49,191 nucleotides of DNA from a virus: the IMG/VR virus record IMGVR_UViG_3300043331_001141, positions 1-49,191 of that record; one strand, given 5' to 3'. Positions 26,622 to 41,510 of this stretch are shown one piece after another. Both the position numbers and the translations under genes were made by a program. Each line of letters begins with the position of its first letter. The stretch's first letter is position 1. The notes beneath the pieces are model-generated. The model did no database searches and was not told the DNA's origin. It saw nothing but the letters and a program-made list of their open reading frames with translations.

Positions 26622-26650
26622 TGCCTGAAATTATTTTTAGGTCTTTCCTC

Positions 26651-26695: not shown

Positions 26696-26711
26696 CGTTG
26701 GAGTGAATCAC

Positions 26712-26858
26712 TCACGAGGTGCTCAGAGCTCTTAGAACTGCCTCCAAGATCAGGAGACCCGACCAGAGCAGGGTGATTAGCCAGAACTGAATCTTTCTTC
26801 TCATCTCAGGCGAGTAATCGTCTGGGAGGAGATACTTTCGCCCCCTTTCTTCTTTCAC
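26712..26858 (-). CDS. 48-aa single-pass membrane protein
   Basis: GTG 26858 overlaps the preceding stop (GTGA). Charged N terminus (MKEERGRKYLLPDDYSPEMR) and one membrane helix FWLITLLWSGLLILEAVL. Its downstream hairpin and the next promoter define it as the end of a transcript. Confidence 0.6.
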   Translation of the reverse strand: MKEERGRKYLLPDDYSPEMRRKIQFWLITLLWSGLLILEAVLRALSTS

Positions 26859-27616
26859 TGAGTCACCTCTTGCATGATTGCGAGAAGTTGATCAGCGATA
26901 TATTCATACGTTGCTATCCATGTTGCCTCTGCTAAATCTGCTGTCCCGCCTCCAGCTTCCGTCGCTGCTCGTGCTGCCCAGACTACTGCTCGTAAGGCGA
27001 ATTCTGGGTATCTTTCCTCATCCTGCGCCGCCCGTAATGCCGCTCGTGCTGCCCACGTCGCAGCGCGTATGGCTCGAGCTTCTAGCGCTACTCCAAGTGC
27101 TACCGCTCGTGCGGCCCAGACTGACCACTCCGACTCTACTGCCTGTGCGGTGGCAGCAGCTTCTGTGGCTTCTCGTTTCCAATCGCCTGACATTATGTCA
27201 TCTCTCTGCCACAGCGCTATAACACGCTCAACGACTGCATGTACGTCTGGAAATCTCGCGTGATCGAATGTATCGAGCACTTTGTTCAGTAGCATAATGG
27301 AGAAATGAGCCTTGACTGCTGTGTTAAACTTCTCTGTAGTGAGCCCGACAGGCATAGCACTGATGAACAGTCTCGGCCATTGCTTCATCTTCGATGGAGG
27401 TAGCCCCTCGTGGATTACGTCAGCTACCTGGTATAGCCACTCAGGGACGCCAGTCGCTTGGGCCAGCGCCTTGTGTGGAGAGTCGTTAGTGTGAGCCAAA
27501 CAACCAACGCAGCAACCTTTCTTTCCATCCCAGTACTGCCCCTGCACAATTTCATCATTCAGCTGATGCTGAACAGCGCGAACTACATACAAATTTTTTA
27601 CTTCTTGTGTCAACAT
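26855..27616 (-). CDS. Alanine-repeat helical protein with N-terminal Cys motif
   Basis: A 253-aa protein. Residues 30-60 carry KKGCCVGCLAHTNDSPHKAL, a cysteine/histidine motif. From about residue 145 the chain is repeated Ala-rich helices (WAARAVALGVALEARAIRAA, WAARAALRAAQ), which resembles the Imm-5-like alpha-helical family. Several unrelated phages carry unknown proteins with this GCCVGC..HT plus Ala-helix layout, as I recall it. Toxin-immunity activity is not demonstrated. It is followed by the 48-aa membrane protein. Confidence 0.6.
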   Translation of the reverse strand: MLTQEVKNLYVVRAVQHQLNDEIVQGQYWDGKKGCCVGCLAHTNDSPHKALAQATGVPEWLYQVADVIHEGLPPSKMKQWPRLFISAMPVGLTTEKFNTAVKAHFSIMLLNKVLDTFDHARFPDVHAVVERVIALWQRDDIMSGDWKREATEAAATAQAVESEWSVWAARAVALGVALEARAIRAATWAARAALRAAQDEERYPEFALRAVVWAARAATEAGGGTADLAEATWIATYEYIADQLLAIMQEVTQ

Positions 27617-27834
27617 TACTTGATCCTCACTATAATAGCCTTCTTCAGCGGCCGTAGTACCGCCGCAATTGCCCTATCCTGACGCATTGCACACGCTCCG
27701 CAAACCTCCTTCTCTACATCTGTCGCGATTCGACACCGAACGATAAGACGCCCGCAAAACGTGTAGAGAACATTGCGAGCAATATAGTACTGGACTTTCT
27801 TTCCACTCTTGAATGTTCTAAATTTCTCTGCCAT
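27616..27834 (-). CDS. Small basic hypothetical protein
   Basis: A 72-aa product with AAGGAG upstream. It is basic (MAEKFRTFKSGKKVQYYIAR) with Cys at FCGR, RCR and VCGACAM, so a metal site is possible. Its last base is shared with the next gene's start. Unknown function. Confidence 0.6.
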   Translation of the reverse strand: MAEKFRTFKSGKKVQYYIARNVLYTFCGRLIVRCRIATDVEKEVCGACAMRQDRAIAAVLRPLKKAIIVRIK

Positions 27835-27852
27835 GGAGAAAGCTCCTTTCTC

Positions 27853-28101
27853 TCAGTCGCTAGAAGTACTCTGTTCTGACTTCCAGGAGCGAGACATTAA
27901 AGTAGCCCGAAATTGGTCGGGACTGAGTTCCTCCCTGAAAATATACCTTCGTACTTCCTGCCCAACGAATGTCGTCGCAACCTTTGCGATCAGACAGCTC
28001 TCGTTATCTTTCTCCAAAATCAGCCATAGAGAGGAAGTCATTCCTCTCCCTTCCTGTACCTTGCACAGACCGTTGGAGATAAAATTAATCTCGTGGGCCA
28101 T
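27853..28101 (-). CDS. Small hypothetical protein
   Basis: An 82-aa product from ATG 28101 with GAGAGGAG. It begins MAHEINFISNGLCKVQEGRG. A beta-rich body is followed by EELSPDQFRATLM, resembling the C-terminal helix of other small proteins here. It overlaps the 54-aa zinc-type gene by 17 bp. Confidence 0.6.
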   Translation of the reverse strand: MAHEINFISNGLCKVQEGRGMTSSLWLILEKDNESCLIAKVATTFVGQEVRRYIFREELSPDQFRATLMSRSWKSEQSTSSD

Positions 28102-28249
28102 AGTTGTTCTCCTCTCTCACATCCGATGCGCAATGAACACAGTAAGGTACTTCATCACTTAGAGTCTCGCACTTCCCTGCTATCTTACAGCACAAGGGTG
28201 TGTCCCAGGACTCGCATTTCTCACAGAATGGAAACTTCTCCTTTTCCAT
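28085..28249 (-). CDS. 54-aa zinc-type protein
   Basis: ATG 28249 with GGAG (spacing 8). Seven cysteines including FCEKCESW, PLCCK, GKCE and YCVHCAS, a two-knuckle pattern. It fills the gap between 28101 and 28314, and its last bases overlap the next ATG. Confidence 0.65.
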   Translation of the reverse strand: MEKEKFPFCEKCESWDTPLCCKIAGKCETLSDEVPYCVHCASDVREENNYGPRD

Positions 28250-28313
28250 ACCTAGTCTCCGCGTGATAGGATTGACTACTGTTTTGCGTTCAGAAGAACG
28301 CTGGAGAATATTG

Positions 28314-28598
28314 TCAGGGCTTCTTGTACTCCTTAACTATCCTCGAAATCGCTTCCGGCATTGACATACCTTCAATAACCCACAGGTACATCTGGCCGCC
28401 TGATACAGAGACTTTCCCTCTCAAATAAACATATCCTTCATGATATTCCACGCTCGCCTCCTCCTGCGGTCCTCCCTCTGTTGGTACTTCTTCGGACAGT
28501 AGAACATTTAGGGTACACAGCCCGCTGTCATTTACCCACACTCCATCGAGTGGACCGCCAATACAGAGAATCTTTTGCTTCGCTGGACTATCGTGCAT
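28314..28598 (-). CDS. GGPxDG-family protein, paralogue 1
   Basis: A 94-aa product with ILCIGGPLDGVW near the start and WVIEGMSMPEAISRIVKEYK at the end. It aligns with the next upstream gene (28655-28945) at both ends, a tandem duplication. Small proteins with a GGPxDG line are frequent in phages; function is not known to me. Start follows an SD after a palindrome copy. Confidence 0.65.
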   Translation of the reverse strand: MHDSPAKQKILCIGGPLDGVWVNDSGLCTLNVLLSEEVPTEGGPQEEASVEYHEGYVYLRGKVSVSGGQMYLWVIEGMSMPEAISRIVKEYKKP

Positions 28599-28607
28599 AC
28601 TAATCTC

Positions 28608-28630
28608 CTTCGTTTAAAATTTGAACATAG
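28608..28630. repeat. Dispersed palindrome, copy 8
   Basis: Core CGTTTAAAATTTGAACA, between the two tandem paralogues. Confidence 0.85.
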
Positions 28631-28654
28631 GGGTGGTAGAATCGCCTTGAGAAC

Positions 28655-28945
28655 TTAGTACCTCGTATACGCTCGAATTATTTCCGAGATCACTTCTGCC
28701 ATTGACATACCTTCAATAACCCAGATCACTATAACATGATCTGAAATGATAAGCTCTTTCCTCCTATAAATATATCGAGTCGGTCCTTTTATCTCCGTTG
28801 TCCTTTCGTTTACTCTTCCCTCGCTGTTTGGCTCCATCTTCCAAGCCACCAGCGTATCTCTTCCATTATCCTCCGTCCACCTGCCGTCCATCGGACCACC
28901 AATACAGAGGATTCTTGCTGATTCAGGTTTGAGCTTCTCATTCAT
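28655..28945 (-). CDS. GGPxDG-family protein, paralogue 2
   Basis: The start is set at ATG 28945 (SD AGAGGAAG), giving 96 aa. It shares ILCIGGPMDGRW and WVIEGMSMAEVISEIIRAYT with the downstream gene. The middle diverges. Duplication with an intervening palindrome suggests the repeat took part in the event. Function unknown. Confidence 0.65.
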   Translation of the reverse strand: MNEKLKPESARILCIGGPMDGRWTEDNGRDTLVAWKMEPNSEGRVNERTTEIKGPTRYIYRRKELIISDHVIVIWVIEGMSMAEVISEIIRAYTRY

Positions 28946-28956
28946 TCTGCTTCCTC

Positions 28957-29523
28957 TCACAGGTTCCACTCTTCCGCTTCTTCCCTTGTCAGGAAGAAGT
29001 GAATCCCATGCGTACACGCCACCCTGATGTCGTCGTCATAGTAGTCAGGATAGATTATCATCCCATCCTGATAAAGGGTATACATCGCATTCTCGTCGAC
29101 TATCTTCGAGTGCACCCTCCCGTCTGTGTTGTAAACCTTAATAACTTCCACCTCCTCTGCTCTGCATTTCCTTCCTATCAAACATCCCGTTCGTCTTGCC
29201 CACGCCGGGACTTGCATCTCCACCAACGTCCCTCCTTTCTTCCCCCAGACTCTCAGCGAGCCCTCCTGAGGGATTTGGAAGTGTGGCAACTTCGCATTGG
29301 TCAGGTTTGCGCCGCTCAAATTCGCACCGGAGAGGATTGCATACCTCAGATCAGCTCCGATCAGCTTCGCGTTCCTCAGACACGCATCTATCAAGATTGC
29401 GTATCGAAGGTCAGCGTAGCTTAAGTCCGCTCCACTCAAATCTTTCTGCCTCAGGTCCGCTGATATCAGCACTGCGTACTTCATGTCACTTCCGCTCAAG
29501 CCTTTATCACTCGTCTCTTCCAT
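28957..29523 (-). CDS. Pentapeptide-repeat protein
   Basis: A 188-aa product. Residues about 10-80 are pentapeptide repeats (A-[DN]-L-x-x: SGADLSYADLRYAILIDACL). A C-terminal domain with GRKCRAEEVEVIKVYNTDG and CTHGIHFFLTREEAEEW resembles DUF5758. Right-handed quadrilateral helices of this sort are found in DNA mimics and in unknown phage proteins. SD AAGGAG. Function unknown. Confidence 0.8.
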   Translation of the reverse strand: MEETSDKGLSGSDMKYAVLISADLRQKDLSGADLSYADLRYAILIDACLRNAKLIGADLRYAILSGANLSGANLTNAKLPHFQIPQEGSLRVWGKKGGTLVEMQVPAWARRTGCLIGRKCRAEEVEVIKVYNTDGRVHSKIVDENAMYTLYQDGMIIYPDYYDDDIRVACTHGIHFFLTREEAEEWNL

Positions 29524-29533
29524 CTTCTTCCTC

Positions 29534-30070
29534 CTAATTTCCTATCTCATCCAGTATTGAGTCAATGTCTTCCTCCAGTCTCGTCGCATCGAACTCTCGC
29601 CCTCCAAGCTTCTCCTCCAGGCTCCTCCTCCTTTCCTCGATTTGTTCTCTGGATAGCGGCTCGCCCTTTATCCCTATCGCCTGCATCTGCCTTTTCGCAT
29701 CGTTAGCGACCTGCTCCCAATCTCTTCGATTATTCTGTCCAGTACTCAGTCTTTCGTCTATCCTTCTCGCAACTGGGTCTCTCCCATACTCCTCTTCTTG
29801 TAAATTGTTGAAATTATACCCTCTTACCTGTCCGATACTAAAATCGCACGCATCGAGGAACTCATTCGCCTCGCTTTGTGTTATCTCAGTTCCCTGCGCT
29901 GCAATTATATCTATGCAGATTCGCACTACTTCACTAAGCGACATCCTCCCAGGGACAAAAAGTCCTTGCCCTTGCAGCCATCGTGCTGCCTGCGCTAGAG
30001 TTACAGAGCTTGTCCTTACACTTTGTACTAAGTCGTTCTTCCTTCCTCTGCGTGGCATTCCTCCCCTCAT
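29534..30070 (-). CDS. Hypothetical protein
   Basis: A 178-aa product whose ATG overlaps the preceding stop (ATGA). Its N-terminal basic stretch (MPRRGRKNDL) is followed by helices (SLSEVVRICIDIIAAQGTEI) and a long charged C-terminal helix (SREQIEERRRSLEEKLGGRE). It may oligomerise. No family recognised. Confidence 0.6.
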   Translation of the reverse strand: MRGGMPRRGRKNDLVQSVRTSSVTLAQAARWLQGQGLFVPGRMSLSEVVRICIDIIAAQGTEITQSEANEFLDACDFSIGQVRGYNFNNLQEEEYGRDPVARRIDERLSTGQNNRRDWEQVANDAKRQMQAIGIKGEPLSREQIEERRRSLEEKLGGREFDATRLEEDIDSILDEIGN

Positions 30071-30297
30071 ATTCCTTCTCCTTTCTCAAATTCTACATGA
30101 AGCCCTATGAGTGGATCATCAACGGTCGTGTATTCTAGCTCTCTGGCCACAGCTCGACACTCTGCGTTCCCATTTCTCCCTGGTCTCCTATTAGATAAAT
30201 ATACTATCTCTCCTATCTCCAAGTCCTCCAACGCTGCATACTTTTCTTCAAGATACTTGCTCCGCTGAACTGCAATAATTCTCGCTCTCTTGCCCAT
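30067..30297 (-). CDS. Small basic hypothetical protein
   Basis: A 76-aa product and the first gene behind the promoter at 30384-30412 (leader about 85 nt). It begins MGKRARIIAVQRSKYLEEKY. No family recognised. SD for ATG is AAGGAACG. Confidence 0.6.
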   Translation of the reverse strand: MGKRARIIAVQRSKYLEEKYAALEDLEIGEIVYLSNRRPGRNGNAECRAVARELEYTTVDDPLIGLHVEFEKGEGI

Positions 30298-30383
30298 TTT
30301 TGGCGTTCCTTATTCTTTTCTTCCTGGACTTTCATTCAGTTTCCATCGCTGAGACGTCCTGGGCGCCCCGCGTGTCCATTGTA

Positions 30384-30412
30384 ATCATATCACACAATGC
30401 ATCCAATGTCAA
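30384..30412 (-). promoter_or_regulatory. Sigma-70-type promoter
   Basis: On the minus strand TTGACA (30407-30412), 17-bp spacer, TATGAT (30384-30389) with an extended -10 TG. Flanks match the promoter at 26593-26621. Confidence 0.88.
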
Positions 30413-30561
30413 TACCTGTAATCATTTCGCCTACCTCGTAACGTAGGCACTGTACGTACCTTTCAGTTGCCAGGGTATCCTATCTCTGTCCCACCCTTTT
30501 CAACTTCCTTTCTTCCAGCTTTCCTTTCCTCCTTCACTTCTTCCCACATTCTTTCCTCTTT

Positions 30562-30586
30562 CTATTTAAAAAATTTTTTTACATAG
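30562..30586. repeat. Dispersed palindrome, degenerate copy 9
   Basis: A 25-bp variant of the family with the outer CTA..TAG, at the centre of the purine/pyrimidine switch. Confidence 0.5.
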
Positions 30587-30606
30587 AGAGAAAAAGAGGT
30601 GGGAAA

Positions 30607-30765
30607 ATGTTGGAAGGAAAAAGAGGAGAGGAAAATGAGTGGAAAATGTTGGCATACATCTATGGTACCCCGGCAATCGTTAGATACACACAATACCTAC
30701 AATACATTGATTACAATGTAATTGAAATCTTTCCATGGATATTTGATTACCTTCCTTTCCTCTAG
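30607..30765 (+). CDS. Possible 52-aa protein on the opposite strand
   Basis: ATG 30607 follows GAGGTGGGAAA and lies 21 bp after a palindrome copy, the same spacing as real genes. The N terminus is charged and the C-terminal half aromatic (YIDYNVIEIFPWIFDYLPFL). It is an isolated rightward ORF in a leftward block, so doubtful. Confidence 0.3.
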   Translation: MLEGKRGEENEWKMLAYIYGTPAIVRYTQYLQYIDYNVIEIFPWIFDYLPFL

Positions 30766-30793
30766 GGAAAACCCAAACCCCTTTTTCTCCTTC

Positions 30794-30816
30794 CTTCGTT
30801 TAAAAAATAAACAAAG
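30794..30816. repeat. Dispersed palindrome, copy 10
   Basis: Core CGTTTAAAAAATAAACA, adjacent to a strong hairpin terminator. Confidence 0.75.
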
Positions 30817-30837
30817 GGGGAAGATTGCTCCTCCCCC
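30816..30837 (-). terminator. Intrinsic terminator after gene 30847
   Basis: On the minus strand GGGGGAGGA-GCAA-TCTTCCCCC forms a 9-bp stem with a GNRA loop, then TTTGTTTATTTTTT. The palindrome repeat supplies the T tract. Confidence 0.75.
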
Positions 30838-30846
30838 TCTGCTCGA

Positions 30847-31032
30847 TCAAATTCCTTGATTTGCTGCAGCGTCAAAAACCTTGCTGAAGAACTCCCTGAA
30901 TGTCTGATGCGTTGCAGGTGCATTCTCAACACATGAGAGAATCATCTGCCCGTGATCTTCCAAAATCCAAGCAAGTGTTGCCATCTCAGACAGAGAAAGC
31001 TCTGTTGTCCCCGCGCTCAAATCTACAACCAT
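30847..31032 (-). CDS. Small acidic helical protein
   Basis: A 61-aa product (AGAAGAG SD). Helical with an ALSLSEMATLAWILEDH-like stretch and a terminal helix FREFFSKVFDAAANQ. It is the last gene before a strong terminator. Function unknown. Confidence 0.6.
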   Translation of the reverse strand: MVVDLSAGTTELSLSEMATLAWILEDHGQMILSCVENAPATHQTFREFFSKVFDAAANQGI

Positions 31033-31047
31033 CTCTTCTCCTTTTTT

Positions 31048-31080
31048 GGGAGGAAGGAAGCACGAGCTTCCCTCCCCTCC
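31048..31080 (-). terminator. Large purine/pyrimidine hairpin
   Basis: Arms of about 14 bp with a 4-nt loop (GGAAGC/GCTTCC at the tip) between a palindrome copy and the SD of gene 31032. It is followed by AAAAAA on the minus strand and by TTCGTTTAAATTTT on the + strand, so its direction of action is uncertain. Confidence 0.45.
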
Positions 31081-31102
31081 TTCGTTTAAATTTTAAACAT
31101 AG
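31080..31102. repeat. Dispersed palindrome, copy 11
   Basis: Core CGTTTAAATTTTAAACA; it includes the stop of the gene ending at 31093. Confidence 0.88.
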
Positions 31103-31293
31103 TCCCAGCCCTGAGGGCGTGCTTTCATCTCCTCCTTTTCCAGCTCTGTCTGCACTTCCATAATCTGCTTGGCACAGTCGAGCGCGCAAGGCCAGCAGAG
31201 ATAAACCCCAGGCACGATCTGGTAGAAGTGGTCGCAGGTCGCGACCGCGGCCCGACAGATTCTACAATGGCCCTGGAATATTTTCCTCTTCAT
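31093..31293 (-). CDS. Small zinc-type protein
   Basis: A 66-aa product. CRICRAAVATCDHF and VYLCWPCALDC give two Cys knuckles, a probable zinc finger, followed by a charged helix. It is the second leftward gene from the divergent promoter. Function unknown; early position suggests a host-takeover protein. Confidence 0.65.
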   Translation of the reverse strand: MKRKIFQGHCRICRAAVATCDHFYQIVPGVYLCWPCALDCAKQIMEVQTELEKEEMKARPQGWDYV

Positions 31294-31302
31294 TCTTCCC
31301 CC

Positions 31303-31325
31303 CTTTGTTCAAATTTTAAACAGAG
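31303..31325. repeat. Dispersed palindrome, copy 12
   Basis: Core TGTTCAAATTTTAAACA, between gene 31365 and the SD of gene 31293. Confidence 0.88.
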
Positions 31326-31331
31326 GAAGGA

Positions 31332-31347
31332 AGGGCTAGGTCGCCCT
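31332..31347 (-). terminator. Hairpin after gene 31365
   Basis: Stem AGGGC/GCCCT with 6-nt loop, then CTTCCTTCCTCTGTTT on the minus strand. Perhaps an attenuator, as no new promoter follows before gene 31293. Confidence 0.4.
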
Positions 31348-31364
31348 CCCCTCAGTCCTTTCGT

Positions 31365-31754
31365 CTACTTTCCGTCCAGGAGCTTACGCATCGCAGCCTT
31401 CTGCTCCGCGGTAAGCTCTGTCTTCCCAGTCAGCACCATTTCGAGCGCCTTATCTACAGTCAGAGCTTGCTTCTCCAACCTCACGCCAGGCTTCCATTCC
31501 GCCAAGGTCGCCTGAATCTCCGCGGCTGTCTTTCCTTCCTCCATCATCGGCCGCATCAAGGCCTGAACCATGATGCGAACCTGTTTCATAAATATCCCGA
31601 AAACGACCGCCTCGCCCGCCCATTTCAGGGCGTCCGCCAGGTTTTCAGGCAATCTCAATTCGATCGTGGCGTTGAGGGTCGCAACCCTCTTCTCCACACC
31701 ATCGACCATCTTCTTCACGAACCCTGCCTGCGCGGGAATCTTCTGGAGTTTCAT
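31365..31754 (-). CDS. First early gene; paralogue B of 24628-25041
   Basis: The start is set at ATG 31754, with SD GGAGGT; 129 aa. Residues 34-92 (LRLPENLADALKWAGEAVVF to TLAEWKPG) align with the protein at 24628-25041. It ends in TELTAEQKAAMRKLL. It is the first gene from the leftward promoter, so probably made in large amounts early. Function unknown. Confidence 0.7.
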   Translation of the reverse strand: MKLQKIPAQAGFVKKMVDGVEKRVATLNATIELRLPENLADALKWAGEAVVFGIFMKQVRIMVQALMRPMMEEGKTAAEIQATLAEWKPGVRLEKQALTVDKALEMVLTGKTELTAEQKAAMRKLLDGK

Positions 31755-31787
31755 GGGACACCTCCCCCAGTCTATTGTAAAGAACAT

Positions 31788-32036: not shown

Positions 32037-32065
32037 TTGACATGGGCGAGGCTTGGTGATATAAT
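32037..32065 (+). promoter_or_regulatory. Rightward promoter for the late arm
   Basis: TTGACA (32037-32042), 17-bp spacer, TATAAT (32060-32065) with extended -10 TG. It is the only strong rightward promoter seen and lies 62 bp upstream of ATG 32127. Confidence 0.88.
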
Positions 32066-32126: not shown

Positions 32127-32660
32127 ATGGAGGAGAGAAGGGACAGGCGGTTTAAGGAGCCGGGGATGCCTCGGCAGTGGGAGACGAAGCAGCTGTGGGA
32201 CCATCATAAGGAGATTCTCCGGCGCCTGGCGATGGGGCAGAGGAGCGAGTCGATAGCGGCGGACCTGGGGATTACGACTCAGACGGTGAGCAATACCAGG
32301 AATTCTGCCCTAGGGCGAGCGAAGGTGACAGAGCTGCAGAGTGCCCGAGACGCGGAGGCGACCGAGATTGCGAAGAGGATTGAAGAGTTCGCCCCTGTGT
32401 GCCTGGATTTGCTAGAAGATGTTATTCAGGGTAGAGCGATGAGGACTGGAAGGGGTGAGCCGATTGATATGCCGATGAGTTCTAGAGTTCGGGTCGCTGA
32501 GAGGCACTTGAGCCGCGCTGGACATGGGGAGATAAAGAGGCGGTTTAGCGTGACAAAGCGGCTGACTGACGAAGAGATCGAAGGGATTAAGTCGAGATCA
32601 GTCGCAGCAATGAAAGAAGCTGGGGTGATAAACGCCCAGTTTGAGAGGATTGAGGAATAA
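32127..32660 (+). CDS. Putative terminase small subunit
   Basis: The start is set at ATG 32127, with GGGAGGAGGGGAG upstream; 177 aa. A helix-turn-helix (SESIAADLGITTQTVSNTRN) is followed by helices and a C-terminal RHLSRAGHGEIKRRF stretch. This HTH-plus-oligomerisation layout fits a small terminase that recognises phage DNA for packaging. The large subunit is at 41554, about 9 kb away, separated by the lysis and receptor-binding genes. A transcription regulator is the alternative. First late gene. Confidence 0.55.
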   Translation: MEERRDRRFKEPGMPRQWETKQLWDHHKEILRRLAMGQRSESIAADLGITTQTVSNTRNSALGRAKVTELQSARDAEATEIAKRIEEFAPVCLDLLEDVIQGRAMRTGRGEPIDMPMSSRVRVAERHLSRAGHGEIKRRFSVTKRLTDEEIEGIKSRSVAAMKEAGVINAQFERIEE

Positions 32661-32668
32661 GCGCGCCA

Positions 32669-32696
32669 GTGTTCTCCCGAACACAAAACAGCTATC
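32669..32696 (+). repeat. Hairpin element, copy 1
   Basis: GTGTTC-TCCC-GAACAC followed by AAAACAGCTATC. First of three related hairpins (see also 32844 and 33909). Confidence 0.7.
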
Positions 32697-32711
32697 GAGG
32701 ATATCAGAGCT

Positions 32712-32903
32712 ATGGAGTTTTACATGCCTGAAACAAGGGTTGACGAGCAGCTTAGGCTAGCACAAGAATCACTCAGGGCATTGGCTGAATGGCTGGAGTG
32801 GGTGGGGAAAGAGCTGGCGAAGAATAGCTCAAATAACTCATCAGTGTCTTCCCAGACACAGGACGGCTGTCAGGTGCGCAGTTCGGAGAGACATCATGAC
32901 TAA
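32712..32903 (+). CDS. Small helical protein
   Basis: A 63-aa frame from ATG 32712 (GAGGA upstream); an alternative ATG is at 32724. The helix LRLAQESLRALAEWLEWVGK is convincing. The C-terminal third overlaps hairpin element 2, so the frame may end early in function. Function unknown. Confidence 0.45.
   Translation: MEFYMPETRVDEQLRLAQESLRALAEWLEWVGKELAKNSSNNSSVSSQTQDGCQVRSSERHHD
32844..32871 (+). repeat. Hairpin element, copy 2
   Basis: GTGTCT-TCCC-AGACAC followed by AGGACGGCTGTC. Stem bases differ from copy 1 but pairing is kept. Confidence 0.7.
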
Positions 32904-33009
32904 TTTATTGTCGTGGCTAATCGGTGTTCCTCATATTCTGGCTCTGGCGTGGATCGTGTGTGTAGCGTTGCGCCTGCGAGCTGAGAGGAAGAGAGGAGGA
33001 AGATTTTGA
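32896..33009 (+). CDS. 37-aa membrane protein
   Basis: ATG 32896 with GGAGAG. One hydrophobic helix (LIGVPHILALAWIVCVAL) and a basic tail (RAERKRGGR). The first of a chain of tiny membrane proteins; possible holin or lysis accessory. Confidence 0.6.
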   Translation: MTNLLSWLIGVPHILALAWIVCVALRLRAERKRGGRF

Positions 33010-33122
33010 CTAAAGCGTGGCAGTGGCTCGTTGTGATCCCTCCAGCTCTGCTCGTGGTAGGCATTATCTACCTGGTAGTGGTGAGATGGGTAGGAAGGTG
33101 GGGCGGGAGATTACCACGATGA
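33006..33122 (+). CDS. 38-aa membrane protein
   Basis: TTG 33006 overlaps the preceding TGA and has GAGGAGGAAG upstream. One helix (LVVIPPALLVVGIIYLVVV) and a basic end. It stops within the next ATG (ATGA). The coupled overlaps favour translation. Confidence 0.55.
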   Translation: MTKAWQWLVVIPPALLVVGIIYLVVVRWVGRWGGRLPR

Positions 33123-33379
33123 CTAAGTGGTTTGAGCGACTTTTTGATCGTCTTGGCATTGACACTCTGCATGAGTTCATGCTGCCCTCACTCAGTTTTC
33201 TCATCTTCTGGTTCTACGTAGCAGTTTGCATTTATATTTTCCAACTCGACGCGATCAAGCCCGAGCACATGATCATCTTTGGATCGGCGAGTGCAATGGT
33301 AGGTATTGTTATCGGCTACTGGTTCAAGGCAGACTCAGTCATTGCGAGTAAGAAGAACGAGGTAGAGAAAGAGGAGTAA
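33119..33379 (+). CDS. Holin-like protein
   Basis: The start is set at ATG 33119 (ATGA overlap), giving 86 aa. Two membrane helices (SLSFLIFWFYVAVCIYIF and FGSASAMVGIVIGYWF) and a charged C terminus with many Lys/Glu. Size and topology are those of a class II/III holin. It sits in a membrane-protein cluster before the tail fibre, as a lysis gene might. The family assignment is by topology only. Confidence 0.55.
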   Translation: MTKWFERLFDRLGIDTLHEFMLPSLSFLIFWFYVAVCIYIFQLDAIKPEHMIIFGSASAMVGIVIGYWFKADSVIASKKNEVEKEE

Positions 33380-33380
33380 C

Positions 33381-33533
33381 ATGTGCCACCTGAAACGTTA
33401 CCTCTCTGGTTATATACTCTACGCGCTATTCTTGGCGTGCTCGCTGCTATTGCTCTGTGTTACGGCTGGTACAAGGGTGTGCAGTTTCTTCAGCGGAGGA
33501 AAGGGAAGAAGGTGTTTCAAATACCGTGGCTGA
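33381..33533 (+). CDS. Alternative-frame 50-aa membrane ORF
   Basis: ATG 33381 lies two bases before GTG 33383 of the other frame and shares its GAGGAG SD. The product has a hydrophobic helix with a Cys (YALFLACSLLLLCVTAG) and a basic end. It is nested in the 55-aa ORF. Confidence 0.3.
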   Translation: MCHLKRYLSGYILYALFLACSLLLLCVTAGTRVCSFFSGGKGRRCFKYRG

Positions 33534-33550
33534 GTCGGTGGATCGGTTAG
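33383..33550 (+). CDS. 55-aa membrane protein
   Basis: GTG 33383 with GAGGAG at a suitable distance. One helix (AILGVLAAIALCYGWYKG) then a basic RRKGKKVFQI region. Of two overlapping frames here this reads more like a protein. Possible spanin-like or accessory lysis role; unproven. Confidence 0.45.
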   Translation: MPPETLPLWLYTLRAILGVLAAIALCYGWYKGVQFLQRRKGKKVFQIPWLSRWIG

Positions 33551-33556
33551 TACCTT

Positions 33557-33868
33557 ATGGAGAAGCTAATCCTTGATCATACTTGCAATTATATGTGTGC
33601 TGCTTCCTGTCACGTCGATGTCGTTCCAGCAGAAGAGTGGTTAGATGAGTCAACTATAATGCAACATAGATCGATTAAGTTTATTGAAAATACCTACGAA
33701 ATACATATTCTCAGATTTCAAAGAGCTCGCGAAATGACGATAGAAGCAGATACGAAATGGGGTATAAGAACACATTTTGATGACGAAGGGAATATAGTAG
33801 ATTCAAATGAGTTAGTCGATATAAGTCGTATCTCCTGGTGGCTGATGTTTTTTGAGTTCGTAAATTAG
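33557..33868 (+). CDS. Hypothetical protein
   Basis: A 103-aa product; no strong SD before ATG 33557. It starts MEKLILDHTCNYMCAASCHV, has a strand-rich middle and ends in an aromatic WWLMFFEF. Lies between membrane genes and the tail fibre. Not recognised as an endolysin. Confidence 0.5.
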   Translation: MEKLILDHTCNYMCAASCHVDVVPAEEWLDESTIMQHRSIKFIENTYEIHILRFQRAREMTIEADTKWGIRTHFDDEGNIVDSNELVDISRISWWLMFFEFVN

Positions 33869-33878
33869 GAATATTTCA

Positions 33879-36680
33879 ATGCTATGTTCAAATTTTAAAC
33901 ATAGTCAACGTTTTCCCAAACGCAAAACGGCTGTCATTCCTTCGCTCATACCTTCACTAGTTCTCTTGCTCATTGTTCTGCTCGCAGCCAGCGTCGCGGC
34001 GATGGACCTGAAGACGCGGACGCGGACAGGGGTGACGACAGGCAACCTTCTCTGTGCCAACGGTACGTTGCTCTGCGATTATCAGGTAGATGATAATTTC
34101 CTAAACCTTCTCGATGGCTTCTCCTACCGTGGCCCAGTTCAGGCCCTTGCCGCGGCTAATCAGGTCAACCCTGAAGGTGCTAGAGTAATCCCTCTAGTCG
34201 GAATAGGCGGTGCGGTTCAGCTCACTTCTAATCCACAAATTCTACCACCTCTTCTGACGAACTCAAACCTAATCAGAGAAATAATTCTTCTAGGTACTTC
34301 TGACGTCAACACTGTTACTTTCAGCGACGGTAACGGCTTGGACCTCGAGGGACCTTGGGTTGGAAACAACTCTTCTGCGCTAGCTCTTCACTGGACAGGC
34401 TCATTGTGGAAGGAAAATTCTAGACGCCTTCCTAGCAGTGGCGCAGGTGCCGATGATCAAATCGCCTCCGAGGTTCCTTTCACTCCTGCCGCTACAATCT
34501 CAGCTATCAATGTTCAGCTCGGTTTGGAAGAACTCTCTGCAGAGAAAGCAGAAGCGTCCGCTCTTAGCGCGCACACAAGTGCAACTACCAGCGTTCATGG
34601 AATCGCCAATACAGCGGCATTACTATCTCGTGGCTCTCTAACGGATACAAAGCTTTGCACGTACGATCTAGCTGCGGACGAGATCGATTGTATCTCTGAT
34701 CCTTCCGCCGTTGGTCCAGATTCTATCGGAACTAGTGAACTCGACGACGGCGGTGATACTCCTGGGAGCGGCGAGTATCTCCGTGCTGATACTGTCGATC
34801 AGGCAGGTATCGAGTATCGTACCGCTGCGGAGACTCGTGCGGACATTGGAGCGGACAATGCTAGTAATCTTATATCAGGCACTATCCCTGCTGCTCGTAT
34901 AGGTAGTACCTCTATTGATAATACTAAAATGGCTGCTATGTCACAGAATGTTATAAAAGGTCGTATCTCGACCGGCTCAGGTAATCCAGAAGACCTTAGT
35001 GCAGCACAAACTCGAACTATAATCCTCTCCGTTCCATTTGACCTACTAGACCCAGGACCGACCAATGTAATCCCTGCTTGGGATGATGTAGAGAACGAAG
35101 TTGATTGGCTCAGTCCTTCCTCCTATCGCAGTCTTACTGGTTCTGACAACGCATCTAATCTTACTTCAGGTACTCTTCCTGGTGATCGTATAGGAGCTAG
35201 CTCTATTGTTAATTCTAAGCTAGCCAATATGAATGAAGGCACTATTAAATGTAGAAATTCTTCTGGCGCTGGCAGTCCCGAAGATTGCACACCTACTCAA
35301 GTAGCAGCAAGGATTGCGCCTGTACTTCCTGCTAATACTATCGACGCTTTAACTGACATTGCGACGGCACTTCGCACCGGCTCGCAAGGAATATTAACCT
35401 TACTTTGTAGCGCAACGACTGCTGACCCTACCGTTGACGATGACAGTGGCGATGGGTATGCGGTTGGCTGTCTGTGGGTCAACACCACGACAGGGAAAAC
35501 ATTTATTGCTCGCGATGTGAGCGTGGGCACAGCGGATTGGGTCGCTCTGGGGCCAACGGTTATCACTGCAGCAACGCAATATGATGGCAACAGTAACGCC
35601 GATTTTGCCATACATGGAACACTCTTTAAGAACACCTCGCAAGTTGTTGATGACGATACAGATACTATAGACCCTGGCACCGTCATCTATGCGTACCACA
35701 TTCACACGCTCAATACAGGGAGTGCCGGGGCTGTCAACTTGGTGTCTGACCCACAGATCACCAATGGCACCAATGGCCAAATGGTCTGGTTTTGCGGGGA
35801 CTCTGACACCAACTATCCCATCCTAGAAGATGGGGATGGGTTGGTCTTACGTTCAGCGATTAATCTTCAAGACCAAATCTGTCTTGAAGCTCAGTACATT
35901 ACGGGCACAGGATGGATTGAGCGTGATCGAACCCCGACAGCGACCATCGGGGGTACAGACACCCAGGTTGTCTTTATTGATGGAACCACGCCAAAAGGTA
36001 ATAGCGGGTTGACATTTAACAAGACAACTAAGGTGCTCACAGCGACCGGAGGCTTTGTCTCGTCGTGCGATGCAGCTACTCAGGAGTGTGGACCCTATGT
36101 CGGCGGGTCGGTCGAGACGGCTGACCCAGTAGATACGACAGATTCAGGCACAGGCACAGTGATTCTTCGTGCTGGTGTCGGTTTACAGTCGCGTGAGGGC
36201 AATGGGCCTGTCGTGACCGCTGTGTCGAATCTCGGCGGCGCGATTCTCTCAGGGACGGGGCCAACGGTTAATGCCGCCGGTGAGATAGCCGTTGACACGT
36301 CCGCTGACCAACTTGTTTATTATGGCTCTGCCGAGCAGGTCATTAGCGCAGTAAAAACAGCAGATATCATGATTGAATCCCCGGTATCTGGTCAGACGAG
36401 GATGTTTTTTAAGCATCCACGAGCCATTACAATTGATTCGATGAACTGTATATCAGAAGACGCAACAAGTGCAGTAATGACGCTGCAAGAATGCGATGCT
36501 GATGGCAATAGTTGTGGAACAGTAGAAGCGATCACCTGTGCAACGACAAACACTAATGACAATGGGATTGATGATGCTTCCATAGCGGCTGGAGCGAGGC
36601 TTCGCATACTGATGGGAACAGTCACGGGCACACCAGGACACGTCCATGTGCATTTTAACTATAAGGAGACACGACAATAA
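33879..36680 (+). CDS. Tail fibre with signal-peptide-like start
   Basis: A 933-aa protein. ATG 33879 has TTAGGA upstream and the start overlaps a palindrome copy. Residues about 15-42 look like a signal peptide (KRKTAV then LLLIVLLAASVAAM). The middle has repeated GTIPAARIGSTSIDNTKMA / TLPGDRIGASSIVNSKLA units and STGSGNPEDL / SGAGSPEDC phrases, typical of phage tail-fibre repeats. From about base 35400 the codon style changes, so the C-terminal receptor-binding half appears to have been acquired. The end is beta-rich. Confidence 0.75.
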   Translation: MLCSNFKHSQRFPKRKTAVIPSLIPSLVLLLIVLLAASVAAMDLKTRTRTGVTTGNLLCANGTLLCDYQVDDNFLNLLDGFSYRGPVQALAAANQVNPEGARVIPLVGIGGAVQLTSNPQILPPLLTNSNLIREIILLGTSDVNTVTFSDGNGLDLEGPWVGNNSSALALHWTGSLWKENSRRLPSSGAGADDQIASEVPFTPAATISAINVQLGLEELSAEKAEASALSAHTSATTSVHGIANTAALLSRGSLTDTKLCTYDLAADEIDCISDPSAVGPDSIGTSELDDGGDTPGSGEYLRADTVDQAGIEYRTAAETRADIGADNASNLISGTIPAARIGSTSIDNTKMAAMSQNVIKGRISTGSGNPEDLSAAQTRTIILSVPFDLLDPGPTNVIPAWDDVENEVDWLSPSSYRSLTGSDNASNLTSGTLPGDRIGASSIVNSKLANMNEGTIKCRNSSGAGSPEDCTPTQVAARIAPVLPANTIDALTDIATALRTGSQGILTLLCSATTADPTVDDDSGDGYAVGCLWVNTTTGKTFIARDVSVGTADWVALGPTVITAATQYDGNSNADFAIHGTLFKNTSQVVDDDTDTIDPGTVIYAYHIHTLNTGSAGAVNLVSDPQITNGTNGQMVWFCGDSDTNYPILEDGDGLVLRSAINLQDQICLEAQYITGTGWIERDRTPTATIGGTDTQVVFIDGTTPKGNSGLTFNKTTKVLTATGGFVSSCDAATQECGPYVGGSVETADPVDTTDSGTGTVILRAGVGLQSREGNGPVVTAVSNLGGAILSGTGPTVNAAGEIAVDTSADQLVYYGSAEQVISAVKTADIMIESPVSGQTRMFFKHPRAITIDSMNCISEDATSAVMTLQECDADGNSCGTVEAITCATTNTNDNGIDDASIAAGARLRILMGTVTGTPGHVHVHFNYKETRQ
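33882..33904. repeat. Dispersed palindrome, copy 13
   Basis: Core TGTTCAAATTTTAAACA, at the left edge of the host-recognition cassette and within the predicted first codons of the tail fibre. Confidence 0.85.
33909..33935 (+). repeat. Hairpin element, copy 3
   Basis: CGTTT-TCCC-AAACG, then CAAAACGGCTGTC. It keeps the loop and the 3' tail of copies 1 and 2 while changing the stem. Confidence 0.65.
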
Positions 36681-37777
36681 TGAAAAAGCTCTGGCTTGTT
36701 GTCCTTGCGTTGTCTCTGCATACAGGCGTATATGCTCAAACGCTGTTGCTCTGCCCCTATGAACGCATGGACGATGTGGCTGGGGTTGGGCGACAGCTTA
36801 CACTAAACCGTCTTGCTCCGCTCGATGTACAGGAACGTGAGGTCGAGGGGAATCAAGCAGTTGTTGTCCTAAGAGCCAGATCGGAAATCATCACGCAGGT
36901 TCTTAGTGCACCCTATAATTGTAGTCTTATTGATCGGGCCACCGCACGCATGCATATAAGCAACGGGCGGCTTAAGCCTCGATACAATGCCAGTACCGAT
37001 ACAATTGAGTTTCCTGTTCCTGCTGCCGGGGGAATGCGCATAACCTATGGTAATCCAGAACGGGAAATTCAAAAGCTAGAAGAAACGAGAGTGCGTGGGC
37101 AGCAATCTCTGTTGTATCGCGTGCTGCATCGAGTCATTGCTTGGATAACTCCGACGAACGCTCTTGCCCAGATTATAAATAGCGTGCTCGATGATTTTAA
37201 CCGTGCGAATGAGAATCCGTTAGATGGCGCAACAGATGTTGAATGGACAGGGCCTGTCAGAGCGTCAGAAACTCCGCAAATGCAGATTGTCAGCGATGAT
37301 GTCTTTCGCGCGACGGGGAGTGGAAATGGGTCAAGCTACTGGACTGTTTCAACCTTTGCGAATCCAGAAGTGTTTAGTACAACTGCCGATGCAACAGGGA
37401 ATACCAATGAGAATCATATCTGGTGGATCGTGTACGCCGGGGTGGGGACATCTGGGGCAGACGGCTATGCATTAATCGTGACGCAAGCGGCAACGGATAC
37501 CTGGTCACTCAGGCGTATGGACGATGACACGACGCTGACAACGCTGGGGACAAACCAAAACCAAAATATTGCTGCGGGCAATATCGTCAGATTGGCTCAC
37601 AGTGCTGCTGGCCCAGTTGCACAACTCTGTACCCCCACGTGTGCAAACGTTCATACCCACACGGATGTTACATATACAGGAAGCGCGCATATCGGTATAG
37701 GCATGAACAATGCCAATATGACCCATGACGACTTTGGGGGCGGGGCAGCAAGGAGAGGGATATGGGTCGTGCAGTAG
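36680..37777 (+). CDS. Secreted lectin-like protein
   Basis: A 365-aa protein with a clear signal peptide (KLWLVVLALSLHTGVYAQ). The C-terminal half begins DDFNRANENPL and reads like a concanavalin-type jelly roll (NHIWWIVYAGVGTSGADGYA). Its ATG overlaps the fibre stop (TAATG). It may bind surface glycan as part of the fibre or be exported. Base composition differs from the core genome. Confidence 0.65.
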   Translation: MKKLWLVVLALSLHTGVYAQTLLLCPYERMDDVAGVGRQLTLNRLAPLDVQEREVEGNQAVVVLRARSEIITQVLSAPYNCSLIDRATARMHISNGRLKPRYNASTDTIEFPVPAAGGMRITYGNPEREIQKLEETRVRGQQSLLYRVLHRVIAWITPTNALAQIINSVLDDFNRANENPLDGATDVEWTGPVRASETPQMQIVSDDVFRATGSGNGSSYWTVSTFANPEVFSTTADATGNTNENHIWWIVYAGVGTSGADGYALIVTQAATDTWSLRRMDDDTTLTTLGTNQNQNIAAGNIVRLAHSAAGPVAQLCTPTCANVHTHTDVTYTGSAHIGIGMNNANMTHDDFGGGAARRGIWVVQ

Positions 37778-39798
37778 GCTTACTTCTCGTGCTGCTGGTT
37801 GTTCATTCTTACGGAAGAGCTGCCGATTTATATTATGATTCCGTGGCAGGGAGCGATGGAAACCCGTGTACGCTGGCTGAGCCGTGCCAGACGTATACAA
37901 AATTAAGCGCAGATTTTGCTGCTGCCACGTGCGGGGATGCGTTGTTTCTCAAACGTGGTTCTACCTGGACAGCAAGTACCAGCTCCCATGGGTTGAATCG
38001 TTCTGATCTTGCCTGTACATCAGACAACAGGCTCACTGTTCAGGCATATAGTACCGGAGACAGGCCCATCCTCAACAACAGTGCAAGCGGCCTGGCTAAT
38101 GTGTTGGGGTTATTTAATGTGTCCTGGGTAGATGTATCGGGCCTTCACTTGATAGGAAAAACACGGAACCTCCTGGTTGGTGGAGGAAGTAATATTACTT
38201 TTGATGACATGGAGCTGGAGGACGCTGTACAAGAGTGCGTACACTTCCGCCGCAGAACCACCAATGCGGCCAGCACTATTGCAGAAAACATCACGTTGAC
38301 CGACTCCATTATCCATGATTGCGTGGATGGGGAGTTGGTTTATATAGGAGTAGACCCTGCACAGAACGGCGGGGTACCGGACACCTCAAAAAATATCACG
38401 ATATCCAACAATGAACTGTATGGGGGGATACGTGAATGCATTGAGATGAAAAGTGGTACGCAGAACGTGACGGTTGAGTATAACTATATTCACGATACAA
38501 CCAGGTCCTCTGCACAGAACGGGTGTCTTTTTTCATCTCGGGCGAGTGGCATTCCTGCGGGAAATCATATCATTCGGAGGAACATAATTAGCCGCAGTGC
38601 AGGAACGGGCGGGTACGCTATTCGCATTCGCAACGATGCAACGATTACAGAAAATATCATCATTGACAGTTCACAACATGGCATCTTGATGGAAGACCCG
38701 AACAACCTAGACTATGTGAGAGTTGTGCAGAATAACACGCTGTACAGCAATGCTGGCACAGGGGTGAGCCATGTGGCAGGGGATAATGACACGATAACAG
38801 GCAACATCGCCTGGGCCAATGGCTCGGGGAATGATGCCAGCGACCCATTATTTGTAAGTGCAACCGACAATGGGGCGGACGATGACAACTTGCGGTTGCA
38901 GGCAGGGTCTCCTGTCCCCACAAATGGGGCGCTGGTCTTTATGAGCATGGGAACGTTTACGATTGCGGGCAGTGGGACATCTGTTGTCCTGACAACAGTT
39001 CCTAAAGTGTCTCCTATCCTGGACTGTAGCGCGCAAGGAACAGCGCTGACCCTGACATGCTCTGGGTCTGGAACGGTGCAGAGTAGCGTATGCAGTGCAT
39101 CAGGAACTGATGTGACTTTTGGACTACCGTCTGCTATTCAACAGGGAGAAACCTGTACAGCAGACCTCACTGCCACAGTATTGCTTGACAGTGCTAATAT
39201 CGGGGGAACAGCATTTACTGGTGTGAAGAACGGGACAAACTTTGTCCTTGATGATCAAGCCATGGCAAATGGTTCGACGCAAGGAGAGACTGCTGAGAAT
39301 CTACTGACCTTGAGTAATCATGTAGATGACAGCGATAACTTTCATACTCCTAGTCGAGGGTGGGAAAACTTGCTTGACCCGTTGCCCATCGCAGACGAAA
39401 CAGACTCTGCATATACACAGGAAACGACTTTTTTTGTGGAGCATTGTGCGGAAACTGGGACATGGGATGTGGGCAACTTGCAGGTATATCCCGATGACGA
39501 TGGGAATGCCGTATGCTTGACGCTCGATGTTCAGACACGGACAGAGATAGCTGGAGCGTTGACGTTGCAAGTGGATGATGCGAATTGCAACTTTGACAGA
39601 CTTAATCCCCAAACCTATGCTATTGATGAATTGGGCATTAAGTGTGTCAAAATCACCTACACAGGGAATGTGTCTGGAGGTGTACAGGTGTCTCGTCATA
39701 GCCTGTTTAGAACGCCACAGGTGCTACCTTCTCCTGGCCCACGCTTGGTAACTATGCGTGGTGGTACTATGCGCGGTGGGTGTGTGGGAGGATGTTGA
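37762..39798 (+). CDS. Secreted right-handed beta-helix protein
   Basis: A 678-aa protein with a signal peptide (GLLLVLLVVHSYGRAADL) and then YYDSVAGSDGNPCTLAEPCQ, the usual opening of secreted parallel beta-helix proteins. Repeated N-x-I strands (NITLTDSIIHDC, NITISNNELYGG) follow to about 350. The rest is beta-sandwich-like. It may be a spike or glycan-active protein. Overlaps the upstream stop by 16 bp. The signal peptide is unusual for a virion protein. Confidence 0.7.
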   Translation: MGRAVGLLLVLLVVHSYGRAADLYYDSVAGSDGNPCTLAEPCQTYTKLSADFAAATCGDALFLKRGSTWTASTSSHGLNRSDLACTSDNRLTVQAYSTGDRPILNNSASGLANVLGLFNVSWVDVSGLHLIGKTRNLLVGGGSNITFDDMELEDAVQECVHFRRRTTNAASTIAENITLTDSIIHDCVDGELVYIGVDPAQNGGVPDTSKNITISNNELYGGIRECIEMKSGTQNVTVEYNYIHDTTRSSAQNGCLFSSRASGIPAGNHIIRRNIISRSAGTGGYAIRIRNDATITENIIIDSSQHGILMEDPNNLDYVRVVQNNTLYSNAGTGVSHVAGDNDTITGNIAWANGSGNDASDPLFVSATDNGADDDNLRLQAGSPVPTNGALVFMSMGTFTIAGSGTSVVLTTVPKVSPILDCSAQGTALTLTCSGSGTVQSSVCSASGTDVTFGLPSAIQQGETCTADLTATVLLDSANIGGTAFTGVKNGTNFVLDDQAMANGSTQGETAENLLTLSNHVDDSDNFHTPSRGWENLLDPLPIADETDSAYTQETTFFVEHCAETGTWDVGNLQVYPDDDGNAVCLTLDVQTRTEIAGALTLQVDDANCNFDRLNPQTYAIDELGIKCVKITYTGNVSGGVQVSRHSLFRTPQVLPSPGPRLVTMRGGTMRGGCVGGC

Positions 39799-40073
39799 GT
39801 AAGTTAATAGAGATGCTTATAGAAAGTGGTGGGAAGGGAATAGGAATTTTAATAATAGTCAGCCTTGTTAATTTTGGTATTGGCACATGGGCTTACTTAG
39901 AGATTACGAAGATTAATATAGAGAATGCACAGGAGGAGTATCTAATTGATGTCATAAAGGAACTTAAAAAAGCTGAGATGCATCATCAGGAACAGATCAA
40001 TGCCTTGAGGGATAGAGTCAGAGAACTGGAGATAAGGTTTGCTTTTAAAGGCATTCATCTCCCTGAGTTTTAA
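39792..40073 (+). CDS. Membrane-anchored coiled-coil protein 1
   Basis: ATG 39792 (or TTG 39795) just after GGGAGG; about 93 aa. One membrane helix (GIGILIIVSLVNFGIGTWAY) and a charged helix (EQINALRDRVRELEIRF). The same topology recurs at 41088-41510, flanking the protease gene. Confidence 0.55.
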   Translation: MLSKLIEMLIESGGKGIGILIIVSLVNFGIGTWAYLEITKINIENAQEEYLIDVIKELKKAEMHHQEQINALRDRVRELEIRFAFKGIHLPEF

Positions 40074-40088
40074 CAGGAGGGGTACATA

Positions 40089-41072
40089 GTGGCTGTTGTG
40101 AATATCCTTGTTGAGAGTAATATTTTTTGTGATATTGCAGATGAGATTAATCTGTATGTTGATGATTTGAGAAATCGGGGATATGATATAAAGATATACC
40201 CTATACGAAGAAATATGAGTGTTGCAGATATGAAAGAGTGGTTACGTGACCACTACCCTTTTGACGGGTTAGTGTTAGTTGGGAATATAGTTGCTCCCTG
40301 GTTTAAGATCGAAGCTGAAACATTTCCGTGTGATTTGTTTTATATGATGCCAATGAGTGATTGGATTGATGTAGATGGAGATGGTATTTTCGAGAGGGTT
40401 GAGAATGAGCAGGTGACTAATTGGGTTGGAAGGATTAAGGTTCCTACTACCGTAAATGAAAGTGGTATGTTGAATGATTACTTCAAGAGAGTGAGGGAGT
40501 ATAGAATAACTCAGAGATTGCGTAATGCGGTAAGCTTTGTTGATGATGACTGGAGTTATTTAACTGACTATGGGTTGTCGTTTGCTTTTGATGATGTTAG
40601 GATTATAAATAATGTTAGTGAAAGCACTCTTGAGACATATAAGGAGGTGCTGAAAGCTCCAACTCAGTGGCTACATGCATCAATCCACTCTACACCTTCT
40701 TCGCATGTTATCAGAGAGGCTAAGGGGAATGTATATCTACGGTATGACTATTTGAGAGATAATCCTTCACAGGTACGATTTTATGAGGTGTTTGGGTGTA
40801 ATGCTGGACGGTTTACGAGTGGGAATTATATTGCAGGGTGGTATATGTTTGATGCATTAGGAATTGGAAGGTGTAAGGGGTTAGGAGGTATTTTTAGTAC
40901 AAAGATTGGAGGGATGTTCTTTCCTGAGAGGTTTTATAGACTACTTCCAGGAAAGACTTTAGGGGATGCGTATCTAGAATGGTGGAAGGGATTTACAAAT
41001 CATAGTGCTAGTATGCGAACATGGACGTATGGGTTAGTGCTGTTAGGTGACCCAACGTTGCTTTGTAGCTAG
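40089..41072 (+). CDS. Gingipain-like (peptidase C25) cysteine protease
   Basis: A 327-aa protein from GTG 40089 with AGGAGG. Early strands (DGLVLVGNIVAPW) and a VDGDGIFERV segment lead to LHASIHSTPSSH (catalytic-His candidate H200) and FGCNAGRF (catalytic-Cys candidate C237), then GKTLGDAYLEWW and YGLVLLGDPTLL. This order matches the C25/caspase-like clan. There is no signal peptide, propeptide or Ig domain. It lies in the foreign-composition cassette; AT-rich. It might mature fibre proteins, attack host proteins or aid lysis. Confidence 0.75.
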   Translation: MAVVNILVESNIFCDIADEINLYVDDLRNRGYDIKIYPIRRNMSVADMKEWLRDHYPFDGLVLVGNIVAPWFKIEAETFPCDLFYMMPMSDWIDVDGDGIFERVENEQVTNWVGRIKVPTTVNESGMLNDYFKRVREYRITQRLRNAVSFVDDDWSYLTDYGLSFAFDDVRIINNVSESTLETYKEVLKAPTQWLHASIHSTPSSHVIREAKGNVYLRYDYLRDNPSQVRFYEVFGCNAGRFTSGNYIAGWYMFDALGIGRCKGLGGIFSTKIGGMFFPERFYRLLPGKTLGDAYLEWWKGFTNHSASMRTWTYGLVLLGDPTLLCS

Positions 41073-41087
41073 AGATGAGGCTCCGAG

Positions 41088-41510
41088 GTGGAAGAGGGAA
41101 AAAGGCTCTGCAATGTAAAGGATCGGATGCAGAAGGTTAAACATGGAAGTGTGATGTTTAGAAACAGATTATCGAAAGCTATTGAGAAATGGTTTGCGGA
41201 GCATCCGGGGGCGACAGTACTGAGTATTGCAGGGATGATTATTATTCCTTTGGTATTGTTCATCTTTAATAATTCTTCTGCTGATATGGGCGAACTAAAA
41301 AAAGTCTCAGCGTTGCATACGCAAATACTGTTTGAAATAAAGCTTTTATCTGGTCAGACTTCAGAAAAGGTTGAGAATTTTAGATTCACTATTATGGAGC
41401 TGCAAACATTATATCGAGAACATGAGATGAGACTTATTGAAGTTGAAAAAGATAACATTGTTATAAGGACAATATTAGAGGAGCGAGTACCTAGAGCTGA
41501 GGTAAGATAG
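41088..41510 (+). CDS. Membrane-anchored coiled-coil protein 2
   Basis: A 140-aa frame from GTG 41088; the start is uncertain (later Met codons exist). One helix (VLSIAGMIIIPLVLFIF) and a long charged helical tail (FRFTIMELQTLYREHEMRLI). It parallels 39792-40073. Perhaps anchors or times the protease; that is inference. Confidence 0.5.
   Translation: MEEGKRLCNVKDRMQKVKHGSVMFRNRLSKAIEKWFAEHPGATVLSIAGMIIIPLVLFIFNNSSADMGELKKVSALHTQILFEIKLLSGQTSEKVENFRFTIMELQTLYREHEMRLIEVEKDNIVIRTILEERVPRAEVR

Follow-up and report, generated by a model that had tools for sequence, protein, structure and literature searches.

The IMG/VR virus record IMGVR_UViG_3300043331_001141 (49,191 bases, analysed at full length and hereafter called the window) represents a complete phage genome and carries a 30-nt hairpin element in four copies, all four oriented with their operon. 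The ends of the record (1-197 and 48995-49191) repeat each other with one mismatch (overlap 197 bp, 99.5% identity), which fits a complete genome. Genes run on the plus strand over 1-12124, on the minus strand over 12133-31757 and again on the plus strand from 32127 onward. The features at the element's two loci are:

28085..28249, minus strand: 54-amino-acid cysteine-rich open reading frame (ORF) downstream of copy 4
28274..28303, minus strand: copy 4, CA-GCGTTC-TTCT-GAACGC-AAAACAGTAGTC (covariance model 43.3 bits)
32037..32065, plus strand: perfect sigma-70 promoter by motif match, TTGACA-N17-TATAAT, heading the rightward operon that holds copies 1-3
32127..32660, plus strand: small terminase subunit (TerS) with an N-terminal helix-turn-helix (TerS homology; Pfam GerE helix-turn-helix match)
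32667..32696, plus strand: copy 1, CA-GTGTTC-TCCC-GAACAC-AAAACAGCTATC (46.1 bits)
32842..32871, plus strand: copy 2, CA-GTGTCT-TCCC-AGACAC-AGGACGGCTGTC (43.7 bits)
33882..33904, strand-neutral: palindrome CTATGTTCAAATTTTAAACATAG abutting copy 3, one of the window's 16 such sites
33906..33935, plus strand: copy 3, CA-ACGTTT-TCCC-AAACGC-AAAACGGCTGTC, outer pair A.C (44.5 bits)

In each unit CA is followed by a stem of 6 bp around a tetraloop of pyrimidines (UCCC or UUCU), and then by the box ARRACRGYWRTC (aligned copies: CAGTGTTCTCCCGAACACAAAACAGCTATC, CAGTGTCTTCCCAGACACAGGACGGCTGTC, CAACGTTTTCCCAAACGCAAAACGGCTGTC and CAGCGTTCTTCTGAACGCAAAACAGTAGTC). An earlier sequence-only reading had reported three copies, and these lie where it placed them; the fourth, on the minus strand, had escaped it. 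Read from 28303 to 28274, this copy is CAGCGTTC-TTCT-GAACGC-AAAACAGTAGTC. The loop and downstream line described earlier are indeed conserved, but because of the loop TTCT and the box end AGTAGTC of copy 4 their consensus becomes YYCY and ARRACRGYWRTC, respectively. In a weight-matrix scan copy 4 scored 26.5 against 8.7 for the next-best site, and a covariance model run over the window gave the four copies 43-46 bits and everything else at most 13.1 bits. A hairpin-family search of 30 Markov-resampled windows yielded no family of more than two, versus the four members observed.

When folded as single strands, copies 1, 2 and 4 are all predicted to form the 16-nt hairpin. Copy 3 gives a weaker structure, in which five pairs (CGTTT/AAACG) form as first described and the outermost pair of the 6-bp frame is A.C. 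Of the six stem pairs, three vary in both partners, two are invariant and one has its single mispair in copy 3, so that Watson-Crick pairs occupy 23/24 cells (95.8%) and the compensatory changes proposed earlier are borne out. This pairing was matched by 2 of 500 column shuffles and was lost when the partner was slid by 1-3 columns. Column shuffling alongside whole-arm permutation gave p about 0.007, and the permutation itself reached 23/24 with the true pairing alone (1/24 permutations). The covariation is good but not overwhelming, and it supports pairing without proving it, because there are just four sequences and the changes are almost all transitions (14/15 variable columns).

Arms matched in this way could also arise without selection, through template switching from one arm to the other, and quasi-palindrome correction can mimic covariation. 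On this account the copies could be a short repeat that is mobile or was duplicated, or could mark the boundary of a cassette, with inverted repeats kept perfect by template switching and not by selection. The near-exclusive transitions fit such an origin, as does the placement of all copies in gene regions that, apart from TerS, lack homologues in the searched relatives; however, the unpaired loop and box are conserved too while the flanks of the 30-nt units share nothing alignable, orientation and spacing follow gene starts, and family scans gave no transposase- or integrase-like match. We regard it as improbable.

The gene before copy 1 had been taken for the small terminase, and homology bears this out: it matches the TerS annotated in Desulfofustis phage LS06-2018-MD01 at 30% identity across 86% of its length and clearly belongs to the same family as the TerS genes adjoining TerL in relatives. 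Copy 1 follows the TerS stop codon and precedes the Shine-Dalgarno sequence and ATG (32712) of a 63-amino-acid ORF, whereas copy 2 overlaps the 3′ end of the 63-amino-acid ORF and lies 24 nt upstream of the ATG (32896) of a 37-amino-acid membrane-protein ORF. Copy 4 is intergenic, 24 nt upstream of the ATG (28249) of the cysteine-rich ORF; for these three copies, then, a start codon follows at 15-24 nt. Copy 3 directly follows the phage-specific palindrome at the start of a 933-amino-acid tail-fibre-like ORF whose start codon is disputed (33879 or later, e.g., ATG 34002). Distances of 175 bp, 1.06 kb and 4.4 kb separate the copies. The earlier reading had suggested a packaging or regulatory element. 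Packaging (pac/cos) or small-terminase binding sites are highly improbable: copy 1 does sit directly after TerS, but the copies extend over 5.7 kb on both strands and track gene starts, and no such sites were found near the homologous TerS genes of relatives. A regulatory role is the more plausible class.

The perfect promoter at 32037 lies upstream of TerS, and in the leftward operon sigma-70 promoter matches of 11/12 lie at 31861 and 30412, upstream of copy 4. Since both operons thus have consensus sigma-70 promoters upstream of the copies, these are expected inside transcripts, as parts of longer mRNAs. The same host-type promoters bear on whether the hairpins might instead be promoters for a phage RNA polymerase, as in phage N4, where the virion RNA polymerase recognizes a template-strand hairpin with a stem of ~5 bp and a 3-nt loop with a central template-strand purine, starting transcription about 11 nt downstream (PMC3715699, PMC6027278). 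Like those promoters, the element is a small set of short hairpins just upstream of genes, its template-strand loop is purine (GGGA, AGAA), and the A.C mispair of copy 3 becomes a G.T wobble on the template strand. Unlike them, it has a 4-nt loop on a 6-bp stem and lies inside sigma-70 operons, with perfect host-type promoters present. Further, Pfam and PHROGs scans of the complete genome gave no RNA polymerase family match; a PDB profile search with the 1517-amino-acid virion-module protein was likewise without a match, and its structure model is almost all-helical and of low confidence. As no polymerase is recognized (with the model of the sole large candidate being of low confidence), we judge N4-type promoters very unlikely.

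The copies also share an open frame, in frame with the downstream start (QCSPEHKTAI, QCLPRHRTAV, QRFPKRKTAV and QRSSERKTVV). We rejected conservation at the protein level because the variable columns are spread 5/5/5 over the codon positions; a frame coincidence of this kind is expected about 1 in 27 times, and copy 1 has an in-frame stop without a prior start codon. Nor do the hairpins resemble intrinsic terminators, all four being followed by ARRACRG... without a T-run.

Beyond the window, the element was not found in ~130 relatives' loci, in 37 whole records with up to 3 mismatches allowed, or, by covariance model, in 50 loci. The refutation test proposed with the first description therefore had a mixed outcome: the covariance model turned up an additional copy in this genome, its pairing intact, and none in relatives. 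Scans of IMG/VR with two patterns gave one chance-like match with the first (in L005, inside a reverse-strand ORF and with an incompletely paired stem) and none with the second. A scan of the GTDB genome collection returned 7 single matches, roughly the chance expectation, and we accordingly discarded a host-derived repeat. In Rfam no family exceeded the gathering threshold, the sole hit, below threshold, being to a CRISPR repeat and lying in another part of the region. A tblastn search of the relatives' loci, with the cut-off applied, likewise gave no homologue for the genes adjoining the copies except TerS, which was matched in a separate comparison. The hairpin element is real and lineage-specific.

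The palindrome next to copy 3 belongs to a second and different family of sites. Nearly every genome examined has a 23-bp near-palindrome of its own, present about 9-16 times and with many sites centred 20-28 nt upstream of a start codon, with cores such as TGTTTAA-N3-TTAAACA in the window, TGTCCCA-N3-TGGGACA in the Desulfofustis phage and TGGTTAA-N3-TTAACCA in the nearest relatives. The window has 16 near-consensus sites (CTnTGTTTAAAWTTTAAACAnAG), nearly all between genes, whose 17-bp cores begin at:

5159, 7684, 13397, 16965, 20900, 22094, 25078, 26654, 28611, 30797, 31083, 31306, 33885, 41526, 45735, 48697

Over the family the mRNA-strand mispairs are divided evenly among C.A (35), G.U (32) and others (34), and for this reason the palindromes behave like a double-stranded operator with phage-specific recognition and not like a hairpin. 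Selection for a template-strand hairpin in these palindromes was also considered and rejected, as the apparent strand bias of a few sites did not hold up across the family.

The 30-nt element might by extension be a double-stranded DNA site too. A transcription factor of the phage or its host would then bind it as a dyad operator, or as an element associated with a promoter, through GTGTTC-N4-GAACAC half-sites that are extended asymmetrically. That the same phage has an operator-like palindrome family at gene starts, that copy 3 abuts one of its members and that the stems resemble half-sites (NYGTYY) all speak for such a site. However, independent half-sites would not match copy by copy as the arms do under permutation and column shuffling, the strand asymmetry of the loop and the 12-nt box is not what a symmetric DNA site needs, and three of the elements end too close to their start codons for an upstream activator site. 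We consider a DNA site rather unlikely.

The explanation that we tentatively prefer, at somewhat short of even confidence, is that the element acts in cis as an RNA hairpin located between the cistrons of polycistronic messages, serving as a control element for about four genes. An mRNA-level element is favoured over a DNA site because the copies conserve a strand-specific pyrimidine loop and a one-sided, single-stranded 12-nt box on the 3′ side, and because their arms are coupled copy by copy; the sense orientation, start-proximal position and host-promoter operons point the same way, and the even spread of changes over codon positions places the conservation outside the protein level. The hairpins would be transcribed within longer mRNAs from host-type promoters, and a trans-acting RNA-binding factor of phage or host, or an endoribonuclease, may then recognize the loop together with the box. 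Such recognition would set either the translation of the about four downstream genes or the processing of their 5′ ends and their stability; both the acting factor and the choice between translation and mRNA processing are matters of inference.

Several observations weigh against an mRNA control hairpin. No candidate RNA-binding protein was identified, and the box that follows the hairpin does not correspond to a Shine-Dalgarno sequence. The stem swaps T-A for C-G without G-U intermediates, and the one mispair, in copy 3, is A.C in the mRNA but G.T on the template strand. Conservation over evolutionary time cannot be shown, because the element has four copies and no homologue in relatives, and the hairpins that relatives do possess are an architectural analogy and not homologous.

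These latter hairpins occur in the nearest relatives (about 57% TerL identity), which have their own stem-GATGAGNA-stem structures with stems of 5-8 bp, at 2-4 per genome. These share the strand of the leftward early genes and lie beside small early genes, close to the start codon:

L007, 4826-5674, minus strand: GATGAGNA hairpins
L009, 7520-8411, minus strand: GATGAGNA hairpins
L014, 2552-2917, minus strand: GATGAGNA hairpins
L012, 5538-5561, minus strand: GATGAGNA hairpin
L013, 8214 and 8473, minus strand: GATGAGNA hairpins
L021, 7086, minus strand: GATGAGNA hairpin
L184, 2976-3340, minus strand: GATGAGNA hairpins

Often AAAGGAA and ATG follow directly; some copies have a more distant start codon, with a TTGACG-like sequence between. 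Six of their eight pairs covary, with 98% of cells paired and 0/500 shuffles matching, and the standard non-Watson-Crick pairs on the sense strand are G-U. The class is not found in the window, where its model, R2, scored at best 12.3 bits versus 19-41 bits for the relatives' copies. An automatic search for start-proximal hairpin sets across 41 record sets, in two versions, recovered the window set and otherwise chance-like groups; its thresholds miss the relatives' GATGAGNA set, so that it is not evidence of absence. The GATGAGNA loop region contains GGA, recalling CsrA sites.

By analogy, the hairpins near the relatives' early-gene starts speak in favour of an mRNA hairpin here and suggest that such phages commonly carry hairpin sets and swap the recognition sequence. 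A broader scheme along these lines, which we offer as speculative and doubtful, is that each lineage has its own small RNA regulon of 2-4 start-proximal hairpins with a shared loop/box code (YYCY plus ARRACRGYWRTC here, GATGAGNA in the relatives), covarying stems and a lineage-specific factor, the code being swapped between lineages and the whole standing beside separate operator palindromes.

Among known systems, lambda-type boxB (nut) is a short transcribed hairpin with a conserved loop, in operon orientation and present once per early operon. The element resembles it as a transcribed, same-orientation hairpin with a conserved loop, but its four copies sit at gene starts within operons; inspection by eye showed no boxA-like sequence, no motif search having been made. 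The operator and processing hairpins in RNA known from phages such as T4 or MS2 (T4 review: PMC3014915) are similarly small, protein-recognizable hairpins near a ribosome-binding site, unlike which the present one recurs within a single genome ahead of four unrelated genes. The SAS/ESAS repeats of cluster K mycobacteriophages consist of a 13-bp sequence, GGGATAGGAGCCC, placed at start codons and in half of the cases accompanied by imperfect inverted repeats of 17 bp, which have been argued to be operator-like, much as the palindromes here (PMC3203893). Like the element, they are short, strand-oriented repeats at the translation starts of a subset of genes, with clade-specific inverted repeats and unproven function (PMC3203893, PMC12699233). 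SAS differs in being an asymmetric 13-bp sequence in 11-19 copies, and GGGATAGGAGCCC does not occur in the four copies as read, with no sequence similarity seen. The departures in the ESAS arms give no support for RNA pairing, whereas the four copies here change in compensating pairs; ESAS is closer to this phage's palindromic family than to its hairpin element. Multi-copy start-associated phage repeats were already known, but they show no indication of pairing as RNA. The present set keeps its pairing although the stem sequence varies, and the genome has a second set as well, whose pairing is not specially kept; the presence of both sets in one phage family makes the choice between RNA element and DNA operator directly testable.

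Family scans of the genome identified a UDG-PolA DNA polymerase fusion, a DUF3987 primase, a ParB-methyltransferase fusion, Sak4- and exonuclease-type recombination proteins, TerL, a portal/head-tail protein and a major capsid protein. The nearest named relative is Desulfofustis phage LS06-2018-MD01 (TerL 46% and DNA polymerase 41% identical), and the nearest IMG/VR contigs are 57% identical in TerL; relatives of the DNA polymerase were recovered with an alignment query but not with a single-sequence query. The 1517-amino-acid protein (7571-12124) is conserved in the family, its C-terminal half being ~32-36% identical in nearer relatives. TerS and TerL, adjacent in several of the nearest relatives, lie ~9 kb apart here (32127-41510), with genes between them that lack homologues in the searched relatives. 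Finally, the tail-fibre or pectate-lyase-like proteins at 1301-3403, 33879-36680 and 36680-37777 begin with hydrophobic, signal-peptide- or transmembrane-like segments, which is unusual for tail proteins.

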